A stretch of DNA of 64,000 bases from Nocardia sp. BSTN01 (GTDB taxonomy: Bacteria; Actinomycetota; Actinomycetes; Mycobacteriales; Mycobacteriaceae). This document shows, one piece after another, positions 58,368 to 62,172 of this stretch. The notes beneath the pieces were generated by a model that did no database searches, had not been told where the DNA came from, and worked only from the letters and a program-made list of their open reading frames with translations. Each line of letters opens with the position of its first letter. Within the stretch, counting starts at the first letter, position 1. Location of the stretch: contig NZ_JADKYP010000024.1 in assembly GCF_015354405.1 (NCBI RefSeq), positions 28,611-92,610 of the forward strand, in the 5' to 3' direction. A program made the position numbers and the translations under genes.

Positions 58368-58583
58368 CTACTCGTCGTCGAGGCCGGCGGACAGATACGC
58401 CGCGGCGGCGATCCACTGCCGGCACGACAGGTGCCGATCGTGCGCGTAGAGAATCGCGCGAGCGCGGGGGTAGGTGAGTTCTCGGGGTTCGGTGGCGCAG
58501 TCACCGACCTGATCGGCACCGGGCATGCGGTGCTCGGATAGGCCGTGATCGCATGTACCGGAATGCTGGAGCAGCTGGTTCAT
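58368..58583 (-). CDS. Small unknown protein of the XRE/DUF397-type locus
   Basis: 71 aa from ATG 58583 with GAGG upstream. The conserved-looking part is ATEPRELTYPRARAILYAHD then RHLSCRQWIAAAAYLSAG, with Cys11, Cys29 and a third Cys in RHLSCRQW. I recognise the pattern as recurring in Nocardia next to DUF397/XRE genes, but no function is known. A -35 TTGCAT and -10 TAAACT (18 nt apart) lie upstream, within and next to the conserved 20-bp site at 58714-58733. Confidence 0.6.
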   Translation of the reverse strand: MNQLLQHSGTCDHGLSEHRMPGADQVGDCATEPRELTYPRARAILYAHDRHLSCRQWIAAAAYLSAGLDDE

Positions 58584-58713
58584 GAAATGCCCTCGACCGT
58601 TGGCGAAAGATTGCGGAAGCGAACGTTTCGGCACGGCCTCCCGCTGCTTCCGGCCTGCCTGCTCCGGCGTGGTCCGGCCATGTCGTGCGGTCGAGTTTAC
58701 GGCGCTGCAAGGA

Positions 58714-58733
58714 GCAAATGCAAGTACATCTGC
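58714..58733 (-). promoter_or_regulatory. Conserved 20-bp element, copy 1
   Basis: The sequence fits the consensus KCAWATGCAAGYACATYTGC found three times in this locus. Outer arms GCAAATG and CATCTGC are almost complementary. On the minus strand it contains TTGCAT as the -35, with TAAACT 18 nt further as -10, pointing to the gene at 58368-58583. Confidence 0.7.
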
Positions 58734-58774
58734 ACACTCGTCGGCGATCGGAAGTGTTGTGCCGCAACGGGTGA

Positions 58775-59575
58775 TCACGGTTTGCGCGCCACCGCGCCGT
58801 AGCCCGACACCGGCACGGTCGGCACCGGTTCGCCGGCCGGCCGGCGCCATCGGGTCAAGGGGACGAAGCCGGGTTTCAGCAACTCCAGCTCCGCGAAGAT
58901 GGAGCGCAGCTCGCAATGGTCGCGCGGGAAATACGGTACGGCCGTGACGTTTTCGTACGTCGCGCACATCCGGACGAAATCGGCGCTGTCGGTGGTGCCG
59001 TCCCAGTAGGCGAGGTAGCTGCCCCGGCAGACCCGCGCCATCGAATCCGCGACGACTCCGCGGAGTTCGCCGATGCGCTCGCAGTGTCCCAGCACGCCCA
59101 TGAACATGACCGCGACCGGCTCGTCGAGATCGAGAATGTCTGCGGCACGGGCGAACAGGAGATCCGGTTCGCGTAGATCCGCGTCCAGATAGACGGCCCG
59201 CGGGTCGGTCAGCTGCGTCCGGCCGTGGGTCAGCACCAGGGGGTCGTTGTCCACATAGACGACCCGCGCCGCCGGATTGAGCCCGCATGCGACCTCGTGA
59301 GTGTTGTCTGTGGCGAGCAGGCCGGCGCCGATGTCGAGAAATTGCCTGATTCCGAGGTCTCCGGCCAGATGGCCGACCGCGCGCCGGAGAAAGCGGCGGC
59401 TCTCGGCCGCCAGGGCGGTGATACCGGGATCGAGTTCTGTTGCCGCGCTTCCTACCCGGCGGTCCACCTCGTAATTCTGCCGTCCCCCCATCCAGTAGTT
59501 CCAGATCCGCGCGGTATGCGGGATATCGGTTCGAATCTCACGCTGCCGGCTCGGCTGCTGCTGTCTTGGCGGCAC
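58775..59575 (-). CDS. SAM-dependent methyltransferase, DUF574 type (second copy)
   Basis: 266 aa from GTG 59575, preceded by AGGAGG with a 6-nt spacing. Family marks: REIRTDIPHTARIWNYWMGG, FLDIGAGLLATDNTHEVACG, VVYVDNDPLVLTHGRTQL and the ending YGAVARKP, much like the protein at 14488 (YGGVARKP). The substrate is unknown. It is placed between the small protein at 58368 and the divergent DUF397/XRE pair, with a conserved element at its own promoter side. Confidence 0.85.
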   Translation of the reverse strand: MPPRQQQPSRQREIRTDIPHTARIWNYWMGGRQNYEVDRRVGSAATELDPGITALAAESRRFLRRAVGHLAGDLGIRQFLDIGAGLLATDNTHEVACGLNPAARVVYVDNDPLVLTHGRTQLTDPRAVYLDADLREPDLLFARAADILDLDEPVAVMFMGVLGHCERIGELRGVVADSMARVCRGSYLAYWDGTTDSADFVRMCATYENVTAVPYFPRDHCELRSIFAELELLKPGFVPLTRWRRPAGEPVPTVPVSGYGAVARKP

Positions 59576-59995
59576 CGATTCCCTCCTGCTCCCGGTTCCG
59601 ACGCTCGAGTCCCGTCCGGCGGTTGCCGATGGCGGGTCGGCGAGACGGTAACCGAAACGTTCGCATCCGGTGGGCCGATCCGCGCGGAACGTGCCATCCG
59701 CCCCGGTCAGGGCCTGAAACCGACCGGTCGGACACCGTTTTCGGGCGTTCGGGGGCCGGTTCGAAAGATGACGAGTCAATGGAAAAGGCCTTGTCGCCCT
59801 TGGTTTTTTGCGATTTTCCGCAGGGCTCGATCCGAGCCAACCCCCGTGCTATCGTTCAAAGCGTCGGTTTCAAATGCAAGTACATTTGCTCGAACATATG
59901 CAAGAGCTGAAGATAGGCATCAGCTCCTTCCATCCGGATCGCCGAGTGTGGGCCTCTGCTGCCGAGCTCGGCCACCACGAACCCTGGAGACAGTC
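59576..59995. other. 420-nt divergent intergenic region of the locus
   Basis: No gene is supported. It separates the methyltransferase from the DUF397 gene and holds the second copy of the conserved 20-bp element (59870-59889) and a partial additional half-site (ATATGCAAGAGCTG, starting at about 59896). Confidence 0.55.
59870..59889. promoter_or_regulatory. Conserved 20-bp element, copy 2
   Basis: TCAAATGCAAGTACATTTGC differs from copy 1 at two positions; the inner arms CAAATG and CATTTG are perfectly complementary here. It lies 107 nt upstream of the DUF397 ATG and about 295 nt upstream of the methyltransferase GTG, so it may serve either. Confidence 0.7.
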
Positions 59996-60226
59996 ATGAC
60001 CGATTCCACTGCCACCACAGCCGGCCGCCTGTCCGAAGCCGCGTGGCGCAAGAGCACGTTCAGCAATCCGAGCGGGAACTGTGTCGAATTGGCCGATTTG
60101 TCCAATGGCCTGGTTGCCGTGCGCAACTCGCGTGACCCCGAGGGGGCGGTGCTCGTCTACACCCGCCCCGAAATCGATGCGTTCCTGCGCGGCGCCAAGA
60201 GTGGAGAGTTCGACGATCTGGCCTGA
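59996..60226 (+). CDS. DUF397 domain-containing protein
   Basis: 76 aa from ATG 59996 with GGAGA upstream. The DUF397 core is SEAAWRKSTFSNPSGNCVEL, ADLSNGLVAVRNSRDPEGAV and LVYTRPEIDAFLRGAKSGEF. It lies 127 nt before the XRE/DUF5753 gene on the same strand, in the usual partner order of these modules (here the small partner comes first). It belongs to a different lineage from the three copies at 3.5-7.0 kb. Confidence 0.85.
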   Translation: MTDSTATTAGRLSEAAWRKSTFSNPSGNCVELADLSNGLVAVRNSRDPEGAVLVYTRPEIDAFLRGAKSGEFDDLA

Positions 60227-60353
60227 TCGGCGGTAGCATGGCAGTCGGCGCGGTGTCGGTACGCGACGAGGCAGAGATTCCTGATGTTCGACCAGCTGCT
60301 CTCGATGGTTGTACCCTCATTGCCGGTGATCGTCGAGCATCGGAGTAGACCTC

Positions 60354-61253
60354 ATGATGGCAGAGCCCGTCCGGATCGGCCGTGTGGATTCGCTTGTGGC
60401 CGAACGCGGTCCGACAGCGCTTCGGATCGCGGTCGGCGGACAGCTCCGCAAACTGCGGGAAGGTGCCGGCATCACGCGTGAGGCGGCCGGCGAGCACATC
60501 CGTGGTTCACACGCGAAGATCAGCCGACTCGAATTGGGCCGCACCGGTTTCAAGGAGCGCGACGTTCGCGATCTGCTGACGCTCTACGGCGTCGAGAACG
60601 CCGAAGAGCGTGAGATGTTCCTGGATCTGGTGAGCCGCGCGAACCAGCCGGGCTGGTGGCACAGCTACAACGATCTGCTGCCCCAATGGTTCGAGACCTA
60701 TCTGGGTCTGGAACACGCGTCGAAGTCGATTCGTACCTTCGAAGGCCAGCTCGTTCCCGGTCTGCTGCAGACCGAGGAGTACACCCGCTCGGTGGTGGCG
60801 CTCGGGCACGAGAACGCCGAGGCCGCTCGCCGAGTGGAACTGCGCAAGAAGCGCCAGGAAATCCTCGACCGCCCCGGAGCGCCGACGCTGTGGGCCGTCC
60901 TCGACGAAGCGGTGCTGCACCGGCCGATCGGCGGTGAGCAGGTGCTGCGCGCACAGCTCGATCATTTGGTCGCGGTCTCGATGAAGCCGAACGTGACCAT
61001 CCAGGTGCTGCCGTACGCGGCCGGCGGTCACGCGGCGGCGGGCAGTTCGTTCACCATGCTGCGCTTCGCCGAACCGGAACTGCCCGACATCGTGTATCTC
61101 GAACAGCTGACCAGCGCACTGTATCTGGATCGTCAGCAGGATCTGGAGCTCTACCGCCAGGTCATGGATCGGCTCAGTGTGCAGGCGGAACCGCCGGAGC
61201 GCTCGCGAGAGATGATGAAGAAGGCCGCGGCCGACCTGACCGACCCGGCCTAG
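60354..61253 (+). CDS. XRE family regulator with DUF5753
   Basis: 299 aa from ATG 60354 (60357 also possible). Residues 24-80 are the XRE HTH (VGGQLRKLREGAGITREAAG, GSHAKISRLELGRTGFKERD). Residues 110-290 are DUF5753 (FEGQLVPGLLQTEEYTRSVV, APTLWAVLDEAVLHRPIGG, YLEQLTSALYLDRQQD). It is the only DNA-binding protein in the 58.3-61.7 kb locus and therefore the first candidate for the conserved 20-bp element. Partner: DUF397 protein at 59996. Confidence 0.88.
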   Translation: MMAEPVRIGRVDSLVAERGPTALRIAVGGQLRKLREGAGITREAAGEHIRGSHAKISRLELGRTGFKERDVRDLLTLYGVENAEEREMFLDLVSRANQPGWWHSYNDLLPQWFETYLGLEHASKSIRTFEGQLVPGLLQTEEYTRSVVALGHENAEAARRVELRKKRQEILDRPGAPTLWAVLDEAVLHRPIGGEQVLRAQLDHLVAVSMKPNVTIQVLPYAAGGHAAAGSSFTMLRFAEPELPDIVYLEQLTSALYLDRQQDLELYRQVMDRLSVQAEPPERSREMMKKAAADLTDPA

Positions 61254-61302
61254 GCACCGCCCGAGTGATTCGGGTTCCTGAGGACAGCAGCCGTAAGACA
61301 GC

Positions 61303-61334
61303 AGTAGCCGCCGACCCGAAGGCCGGCGGCTACT
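61303..61334. terminator. Terminator between XRE gene and small gene
   Basis: AGTAGCCGCCG (61303-61313) and CGGCGGCTACT (61324-61334) form an 11-bp stem with a 10-nt loop between convergent stops. Confidence 0.75.
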
Positions 61335-61348
61335 ACTTCCGTCCCGAT

Positions 61349-61600
61349 CTATTGCTTGATGAAGCTGGATGCGATGCGCCAGAAAGCTTCCGGTTGCATC
61401 GCGTCGAAATCCCAATCGTTCACCAACGCGTGCGCGGTGGTGACGATGCGATCGATATCGAAATCATCGCGTGTGGCCGCGCCGGTGGACTCGACCGCAC
61501 TGATGACGAAAGATGTTGCGGTTTCCCGCGAATAGATGTGATGCCCGGTTCGGTTCCTGTCCATCACTCCGAGCCGACCGAGACCCATTGGCTGGTTCAT
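61349..61600 (-). CDS. Small unknown protein of the locus
   Basis: 83 aa from ATG 61600 with AGGGG upstream. No family is recognised. The middle is YSRETATSFVISAVESTGAA and the end HALVNDWDFDAMQPEAFWRI. No membrane segment. The promoter has -35 TTGCAT inside the third conserved element and -10 TAGACT (61705-61710), 18 nt apart, the same layout as for the gene at 58368. Confidence 0.55.
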   Translation of the reverse strand: MNQPMGLGRLGVMDRNRTGHHIYSRETATSFVISAVESTGAATRDDFDIDRIVTTAHALVNDWDFDAMQPEAFWRIASSFIKQ

Positions 61601-62172
61601 ACGAACGCCCCTGACGCCAGGCCGCATGATTTCCTTCGGCGAAAATTGGCTTCCGGTTCACCCTGCGGCTCACGGGTAGTCCCCTGCATTGCCTTGCAAG
61701 CCCGAGTCTAGGGTGGCCGCGAGATCATATGCAAGCACATCTGCAACATCGAATCCCCGGTCAGAGCGTGGTTTTCGGCTGCTGACGGGTTGCTGTGAAC
61801 CGTCCCCGGGGCTCTCCATACGGGCGGGATTCCGGCGCCGATACCGATAGCGGGGGAGATATACCGACCGGCACGGCGGCCCGGGCGGGTGGGTGGCTTG
61901 CTGCACTGTTTCCACACGGACCGGACGGCTGGTTCTCTCGCCGAAAAAATGTGGTATTGCCGCCGGAAATCGACACGCCGACCATGATCGAACACGCTGC
62001 CGAGCGTGTCGCAGGTGTCCCGCGCAGCGGCCCCGACGTGGAACCGGTTCTCGTCGCCGTGCTATATCTGCCTGGACCAGCAAGATCAGTCGCCGACGGC
62101 GAACGCGCGCTGTCGCCGACGGCGGCCCGTGCGGTACTCGCGGGCGGCGACCCGAGGAGACAGGCACGCGCA
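61601..62172. other. 572-nt intergenic region
   Basis: It holds the promoter of the small gene at 61349 with the third conserved element (61725-61744). From 61745 to 62172 open frames on both strands have unlikely composition; an upstream extension of the thioesterase gene to 61795 is not favoured. Confidence 0.5.
61725..61744 (-). promoter_or_regulatory. Conserved 20-bp element, copy 3
   Basis: TCATATGCAAGCACATCTGC fits the consensus KCAWATGCAAGYACATYTGC. It carries the minus-strand -35 TTGCAT; the -10 TAGACT is at 61705-61710. The spacing to the -10 is the same (18 nt) as in copy 1. Confidence 0.7.

Follow-up and report, generated by a model that had tools for sequence, protein, structure and literature searches.

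Gene content and conservation of the locus

Within the window, i.e., the whole 64,000-nt stretch of Nocardia DNA that was analysed, we described a locus whose gene content (a 71-aa protein, a PF04672 methyltransferase, a DUF397 protein, an XRE/DUF5753 regulator, and an 83-aa protein) was as given in the initial annotation. Its features, from left to right, were as follows.

58368..58583, minus strand: small gene A, 71 aa, matching no Pfam or NCBIfam family above cut-off
58694..58699, minus strand: -10 of the A promoter, TAAACT; TANNNT at 18-nt spacing in 97/100 loci
58714..58733, no strand: operator S1, a pair of CANNTGC units with 12-bp spacing, its dyad centred at about -36.5 of the A promoter
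58775..59572, minus strand: SAM methyltransferase PF04672/DUF574, E 9e-73; start uncertain, with the ORF open to 59779
59847..59855, plus strand: extended -10 TGCTATCGT of the DUF397-XRE operon; TGNTANNNT here in 100/100 loci
59870..59901, no strand: operator S2, CANNTGC units at 59871, 59883, and 59895; lying behind the predicted start site
59996..60226, plus strand: DUF397 (BldB-like) protein, 76 aa, PF04149, E 2e-20
60354..61253, plus strand: XRE/DUF5753 regulator, 299 aa, NCBIfam NF058600 (Sco1979 family)
61349..61600, minus strand: small gene B, 83 aa; alternative in-frame ATG at 61627; modelled as three helices
61705..61710, minus strand: -10 of the B promoter, TAGACT; TANNNT at 18-nt spacing in 96/96 loci having the site
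61725..61744, no strand: operator S3, a pair of CANNTGC units with 12-bp spacing that covers the -35 of the B promoter

The regulator scored 398.2 bits against NF058600 (curated cut-off of 350) and, with the adjacent DUF397 gene, forms an XRE/DUF397 (WhiJ/BldB) pair, with PF13560, PF19054, and PF04149 all above their gathering scores. A Pfam search of the five locus genes and three neighbours found no adjacent HATPase_c anti-sigma gene of the AbaA-like type present in WhiJ clusters, and no solved structure related to the XRE protein by sequence was found.

Among the small proteins, A exhibited invariant Cys29, His48, His51, and Cys54 residues in 40 aligned sequences. The best structure models reached a pLDDT of 66 for A and 75.7 for B (58-61 for the other four B models); a PDB search with the models returned no match better than E 3, so no function was drawn from the folds. 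Homology between A and B was rejected (hhalign probability of 0.6%).

Matches to A (E ≤ 0.001), B (E ≤ 0.001), and the XRE protein (E ≤ 1e-60) were each found in 148 out of the 149 Nocardia genomes, and B was nearly confined to Nocardia within the taxonomic family (1 out of 230 other genomes). We fetched 99 loci from the 148 XRE-positive genomes, including all 8 genomes without the exact operator core. Together with the window, these exhibited the order A, methyltransferase (matched in 51/100 loci, partially in three of them), DUF397, XRE, and B. Gene B was missing or cut off in 3 of the 100 loci (in L086, the contig ends before B) and decayed in one; the XRE reading frame was disturbed in L137 and L122, and the XRE match started late in L116. 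Co-occurrence of all five families, put forward as a check at the outset, was thus seen genus-wide for A, B, and DUF397-XRE, which are tied by one operator, but not for the methyltransferase, given its presence in 51/100 loci.

The operator and its promoters

The element KCAWATGCAAGYACATYTGC was present at 58714-58733, 59870-59889, and 61725-61744, on the plus strand and with 0 mismatches in all three cases, as first reported. At ≤ 3 mismatches, these three copies (versus 0.02 expected from 100 shuffles) were the only ones found in the window, in agreement with the earlier impression by eye. In the 7.79-Mb host genome, exact 20-bp matches were restricted to the locus; at 3 mismatches there were six additional places, versus 4 for the reversed-pattern control. 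The exact 16-bp core occurred at four sites, three of them at the locus, so that the genome-wide search suggested at the outset did not hit many unrelated promoters. The core was found in 141 of the 149 Nocardia genomes (host included), versus 3 out of 230 other genomes of the family.

The element itself consists of CANNTGC units spaced 12 bp from each other and joined by AAGNA linkers: two units precede A, two precede B, and three precede DUF397, the middle one often being degenerate. In S2, the third unit (CATATGC, 59895-59901) follows the 20-bp middle copy. The three sites kept their order and orientation in the 99 fetched loci and the window. With ≤ 2 mismatches, S1 was present in 100/100 loci and S3 in 96/97; S2 was the weakest site, passing this limit in 79 of the 96 loci where it was assigned correctly, and 52 of 90 loci kept its middle unit. 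L092, L099, L102, and L142, in which an S1 copy had been taken for S2, are not among the 96. Where B is missing or decayed within the contig, as in three loci (L138, L139, and L151), site 3 was lost in every case.

Two kinds of promoter arrangement were observed. At copies 1 and 3, the geometry noted initially was verified: TTGCAT on the minus strand is spaced 18 nt from TAAACT and TAGACT, respectively (the -35 consensus being TTGACA), and at the A and B promoters the S1 and S3 dyads reach from about -46 to about -27. An operator over the -35 is equally compatible with a repressor site. The middle copy does lie between the methyltransferase and the DUF397/XRE pair; to that description we add its third unit and the upstream extended -10 TGCTATCGT, which points into DUF397-XRE and whose last base is followed 15 nt later by the start of S2. 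TGNTANNNT was found ahead of S2 in 100/100 loci, versus 0.003 in shuffled sequences, and at S1 and S3 in 0/100 and 0/96 loci, respectively; conversely, none of the 90 rows holding a true S2 exhibited an 18-nt-spaced -10 there.

Sites were also observed outside the locus (L177, L013, L222, L234, L219, L220, L221, L223, L224, L225, and L235). These 11 all lacked a -10 with 18-nt spacing as well as any TGNTANNNT in the 45 nt upstream, and they were therefore not counted as regulon members.

Operator and recognition helix in other genera

Related DUF397-XRE loci in other genera of the order likewise have CANNTGC units with 12-bp spacing in front of DUF397, although in all except two the linker is ACGTG instead of AAGNA. 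An AAGNA operator accompanied an H-A recognition helix in 98/98 readable Nocardia loci, and the operator type across Nocardia was AAGNA in 87 loci, a tie in 13, and ACGTG in 0. The same combination was found in two loci of two other genera (2/2), whereas the 60 other loci (1 AAGNA, 13 ties, and 46 ACGTG) exhibited helices other than H-A, mostly E-S. Both operator types were present in one genome, G579 (loci L240 and L348). In a tree of 51 of the available XRE proteins, the changes in operator and helix co-occurred on one branch. This change corresponds to a single event, and adjoining DNA shares its history in any case.

Among the matches listed, exact ACGTG sites were concentrated at XRE/DUF397 loci (14 of 17 different places); at ≤ 1 mismatch, the pattern was no commoner than its reversed control in 32 other-genus genomes. 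Among 62 DUF397 loci of other genera, five of them without an operator of ≤ 2 mismatches, TGNTANNNT started 8-40 nt before the operator in 25 of the 57 operator loci, versus 1% of shuffled flanks. The extended -10 was found before the operator in 0/21 loci of genus g45, so this feature is not general outside Nocardia. In the sister genus (locus L345), a site behind XRE was kept, with a -10 at 18 nt.

The 66 fetched loci of other genera contained no match to A or B (E ≤ 0.01), and the methyltransferase was present in 39 of them. Judged by this distribution, the methyltransferase is an older and optional neighbour of the locus.

The recognition helix was also examined in 20 Nocardia XRE paralogs (L137 excluded): 17 carried GSHAKISR, as in the local XRE, and three GSYAKISR. 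No core site (≤ 1 mismatch), DUF397, A, or B was found in the 7 kb fetched around them. Since 17 paralogs share the helix and none has the site, the helix by itself does not predict the site, and this comparison neither proves nor excludes XRE as the binder.

A predicted XRE-DUF397 switch and its alternatives

Conservation, architecture, promoter geometry, and the joint change of operator and helix are all observed; inferred are the binding by XRE, whether each site acts positively or negatively, what DUF397 does, and what A and B are for. The operator tying A, B, and DUF397-XRE is likely to be bound by the local XRE, based on genus-wide co-occurrence, the loss of site 3 in three loci with B missing or decayed, and the operator-helix co-change. 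The proposal that one XRE controls a five-gene module is thus retained as regards the single operator and its likely binder, but not as regards the optional methyltransferase.

The locus is probably a dedicated XRE-DUF397 switch of the Nocardia core. An XRE protein of the Sco1979 family would bind the CANNTGC arrays with the AAGNA linker at S1, S2, and S3. At S1 and S3, which overlie the -35 region and keep a constant phase relative to the -10, bound XRE would most likely activate A and B from a class-II-like position; at S2, where the array lies directly behind the predicted start site, it would repress its own DUF397-XRE operon. DUF397 would most likely counteract XRE, since BldB loss in Streptomyces leads to WhiJ9-dependent activation, and A and B would be the outputs.

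This proposal can be compared with WhiJ9-BldB9-iosA of S. venezuelae which, according to PMC10294661, also associates an XRE/DUF397 pair with a neighbouring target gene for a small uncharacterised protein. There, WhiJ9 binds three direct repeats, is required for iosA activation, and has a site behind its own promoter that accompanies a mild, 2-fold autorepression. The WhiJ9 repeats read CGXXCTCAAC and are placed 113 bp ahead of the iosA start, unlike the Nocardia CANNTGC/AAGNA arrays, which at A and B overlap the -35; moreover, DUF397 comes first here. A second relative is SCO1979/SCO1978 of S. coelicolor, whose XRE belongs to the same family NF058600, the Nocardia XRE scoring above its cut-off. 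PMC12565409 names SCO1979 as autoregulatory and binding upstream of its own gene; its neighbour is an AbaA-like anti-sigma gene according to PMC4255298, whereas the Nocardia XRE has A and B as neighbours. A literature text search with four operator strings gave no paper on these regulators among the matches listed. The initial idea of a toxin-antitoxin-like system is not supported; PMC10364602 reports no such behaviour for 14 overexpressed XRE/DUF397 pairs of S. coelicolor.

Alternatively, XRE could bind all three sites and repress A, B, and its own operon, with DUF397 or a DUF5753 ligand relieving all of them together. Binding at about -46 to -27, over TTGCAT as a possible -35, would block RNA polymerase, and the fixed 18-nt spacing is also demanded by -35/-10 spacing alone; however, TTGCAT is weak as a -35, sharing only TTG with the consensus, and WhiJ9, the best-studied relative, is needed to activate its neighbour iosA (PMC10294661). 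We consider this reading unlikely, though the strongest of the competitors to an activating switch. It is quite improbable that another regulator, or XRE paralogs, bind the three sites, with the local XRE a passenger under its control. Genome G134, which lacks both XRE (E ≤ 1e-60) and A, retains only two sites at ≤ 1 mismatch, both of off-locus types, which speaks for the switch in that no locus-type site is left and for this rival in that off-locus sites persist without the XRE; paralogs with the same recognition helix occur in many Nocardia, and the host genome has 44 loose first-look candidates for the XRE protein. Against this stand the co-change of operator type with the local XRE helix across genera and the concentration of exact sites at the locus, both in the host (3/4) and among the matches listed for other genera (14/17). 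Finally, a coding origin of the element, suggested by its 12-bp period (four codons), the common direction of the copies, and a frame reading CK[YHN]IC that is open over 42 nt in 95/100 loci at S1 and 86/96 at S3 (which alone would not decide), was rejected as highly improbable, because at S2 just 47/83 loci keep that Cys frame open over 42 nt and 69/83 the ATG frame (a few rows being S1 copies), and the Cys frame of off-locus copy L013 is interrupted by a stop; in addition, palindromic co-variation is seen at some outer positions of the S1 arms, and promoters lie at fixed distance.

Beyond the activating switch at this locus, a family-wide code can be tentatively proposed, for which we see almost even chances. 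Sco1979-type XRE/DUF5753 regulators would recognise CANNTGC half-sites repeated in tandem every 12 bp, two helix residues (HA or mostly ES) reading the linker AAGNA or ACGTG and the partner gene DUF397 being the constant target across genera; in Nocardia, two new small-protein families would have come under this code through sites in an activator position, giving a genus-core output switch. One of these, with its invariant Cys/His/His/Cys, could bind metal.

Many actinobacteria carry XRE/DUF397 pairs in numerous copies, with a median of 19 BldB paralogs per genome having any, according to PMC10294661. For this poorly understood regulator family, the locus allows the operator to be predicted precisely, along with the sign of regulation, and points to two output genes. 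The pairing of helix and linker can be compared between natural proteins of two genera, and two small new protein families, A and B, are placed under a predicted switch.

Genes of the locus and their distribution

The locus occupies positions 58368-61744, with three operator copies lying before A, DUF397 and B, respectively.

Genes and operator copies of the locus, each set in order
Small gene A (71 aa, family unassigned), minus strand
PF04672 methyltransferase, minus strand
DUF397 gene (BldB-like partner), plus strand
XRE/DUF5753 regulator gene (XRE), plus strand
Small gene B (83 aa, family unassigned), minus strand
58714-58733, S1, operator copy before A
59870-59901, S2, operator copy before DUF397
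61725-61744, S3, operator copy before B

XRE matched NCBIfam NF058600 (Sco1979 family) with 398 bits (cut-off 350), and A and B matched no Pfam or NCBIfam family above cut-off. When compared with each other, A and B proved unrelated. Cys29, His48, His51, and Cys54 of A were invariant in 40 sequences and could be metal ligands. The structure model of A was weak (pLDDT 66), that of B consisted of three helices (best pLDDT 76), and no solved folds resembling either model were found.

XRE (E ≤ 1e-60), A, and B each had a match in 148 of the 149 Nocardia genomes, counted as genomes with any match, since paralogs exist; genome G134 lacked XRE and A and contained weaker B relatives. Ninety-nine Nocardia loci were fetched, among them those of each of the 8 genomes lacking an exact core motif, giving 100 with the window. 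The order A-[methyltransferase]-DUF397-XRE-B and the orientation were constant in these loci, except that B was absent from two (L139 and L151), decayed in one (L138), and cut off in one (L086). The locus is thus core to the genus Nocardia. The co-occurrence of five families, as proposed in the initial annotation, held nearly throughout for A, DUF397, XRE, and B, but not for the methyltransferase, which was matched in 51 of the 100 loci (3 of them partially). Within the taxonomic family, B is almost restricted to Nocardia, with matches in 1 of 230 genomes outside the genus. B also places the window in a Nocardia genome: the best 80 of 126 B relatives from named genomes were all labelled Nocardia, identity reaching 100% for N. 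mikamii, N. aobensis, and N. kruczakiae. Paralogs of B were observed at other Nocardia places (L206, L210-L216), making B a small family of paralogs, and the fetched stretches of these contained no core motif at ≤2 mismatches.

An order-level search provided 66 loci from other genera (40 fetched, L240-L264, and L345), 62 of which contained DUF397. A PF04672 methyltransferase was observed near XRE in 39 of the 66 (L240-L264, L348-L387 range), from which it follows that the methyltransferase-regulator association predates the Nocardia arrangement; it lay upstream of XRE on the minus strand in 27 loci.

Operator sites and promoter geometry

The 20-bp consensus described in the initial annotation was indeed present three times in the window, at the positions given there (0.02 expected at ≤3 mismatches), and a genome-wide search returned exactly three exact copies. 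Its 16-bp core, ATGCAAGNACATNTGC, was found in 141 of 149 Nocardia genomes (own included), usually in two copies, versus two occurrences in total for the reversed pattern. Among sampled genomes of the taxonomic family, 18 of 21 from Nocardia contained it, versus 3 of 230 others.

All operator copies share one direction. S1 and S3 are composed of two CANNTGC units with 12 bp spacing, with no third unit at either. S2 shows degeneracy, with 79 of 96 loci matching the core at ≤2 mismatches. Its outer units are 24 bp apart in all 90 correctly assigned rows, 52 of which also have the middle unit; the unit score (≥4 of 5 bases) was attained by 1.9% of background positions. S1 is partly an extended dyad as well: pairing exceeded all 300 shuffles at outer arm positions 9, 10, and 13 and 296 of 300 at position 12, the shuffles ignoring kinship, with no excess at the remaining outer arm positions.

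A minus-strand TANNNT was located exactly 18 nt from the TTGCAT of the motif at S1 (97/100) and S3 (96/96), and at none of 90 true S2 rows, four S1 copies mis-assigned to S2 having been excluded. An extended −10 directed into DUF397-XRE, TGNTANNNT, lay 20-28 nt before the TGCAAG-type core of S2 in 100 of 100 loci (0.3% in shuffled regions), and was found at neither S1 (0/100) nor S3 (0/96). Its −10 hexamer was TATCGT in 80 loci, TAATGT in 6, and other in the rest, with TANNNT always kept. These placements therefore position S1 and S3 over the −35 region (dyad centre at about −36.5) and S2 behind the predicted start site.

One frame of the motif translates as CK[YHN]IC and its period equals four codons, so a coding origin was also tested. 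The Cys frame was open at S1 (95/100) and S3 (86/96); at S2 it was open in 47 of 83 loci, versus 69 of 83 for the ATG frame, and an off-locus copy contained a stop in the Cys frame, so that this reading was rejected.

Some copies occurred elsewhere in Nocardia genomes. A conserved core copy, ATGCAAGCACATTTGC (L177 ~6005, G000:C77; also L013, L222, and L234), had no −10 at 18 nt, was kept in G134 despite the missing XRE locus, and was flanked, by eye, by adenylation enzyme and metallophosphoesterase lookalikes. A second element, ATGCAATTACATTTGC, was observed in L225 (~3061, G000:C177) and L235, and G134 also has one. A core site with additional CANNTGC-like repeats was present in L221 (~3025), upstream of genes resembling, by eye, a conflict-system component and a repeat protein. 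None of the 11 off-locus sites read exhibited either promoter geometry.

Pairing of operator and XRE recognition helix

S3 was lost in all three loci in which B was gone or decayed inside the contig, which argues for the local XRE as the binder. Against this, or neutral, are the degeneracy of S2, the single change of helix and operator and the ACGTG counts in other genera (both below), the off-locus sites, 20 Nocardia XRE paralogs, with the same helix in 17 and Y for H in 3, and the persistence in G134, without XRE, of the conserved off-locus core site and another related element. Within 7 kb of these paralogs, no A, B, DUF397, or core at ≤1 mismatch was found; one had a 2-mismatch site.

In other genera, an operator of CANNTGC units was mostly present upstream of DUF397, and its linker tracked the recognition helix of the adjoining XRE, which also speaks for the local XRE as the binder. 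The variable residues (HA, or others, mostly ES) probably occupy positions with which related HTH repressors contact bases. HA was found in all 98 readable Nocardia loci. The AAGNA linker pattern scored better in 87 of 100 Nocardia loci (13 ties, none worse) and in both HA loci outside Nocardia; with non-HA helices (n = 60 loci), ACGTG scored better in 46, with 13 ties and 1 worse. Genome G579 carried both operator/helix kinds, at L240 and L348, and a separate DUF397 accompanies each. Since the HA helix forms a single clade of the XRE tree (support 100/97), helix and operator changed once.

TGNTANNNT started 8-40 nt before the operator in 25 of 57 operator-bearing other-genus loci, two of them HA loci (1% of shuffled flanks), and in none of 21 loci of one genus (g45). 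In the sister genus (G162, L345), one site preceded DUF397 and a second, with a −10 at 18 nt, lay behind XRE. When ≤1 mismatch was allowed, the ACGTG pattern showed no excess over its reversed control across 32 genomes of other genera; exact matches were concentrated, 14 of the 17 places among the matches listed being the XRE/DUF397 locus itself. Six other-genus DUF397 promoters (L350, L353, L359, L367, L378, and L385) exhibited two operators about 50-55 bp apart, flanking the extended −10 in five; such pairs could allow looping or cooperative binding.

Relation to known XRE/DUF397 systems

XRE/DUF397 pairs, one of which was named on a N. farcinica plasmid, were once proposed as toxin-antitoxin systems (PMC2701414). 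The toxin-antitoxin-like role initially suggested for this locus is disfavoured by 14 S. coelicolor pairs, for which another study describes no such behaviour (PMC10364602). Among the matches listed in a literature search with the operator strings, all titles concerned other subjects.

By gene content, the locus is of the Sco1979 family and XRE/DUF397 kind. It differs from WhiJ9/BldB in its operator sequence, in its sites overlapping the −35, and in its two target families, A and B; an AbaA-like gene is absent at the Nocardia locus. WhiJ9 is reported to bind three direct repeats, to be required for iosA activation, and to repress itself about 2-fold, with a binding site downstream of the promoter of its own gene (PMC10294661). 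Leaning on this precedent, XRE at S1 and S3 would activate A and B from the −35 region, and XRE at S2, behind the predicted start, would repress its own DUF397-XRE operon; we infer that the locus works like WhiJ9/BldB.
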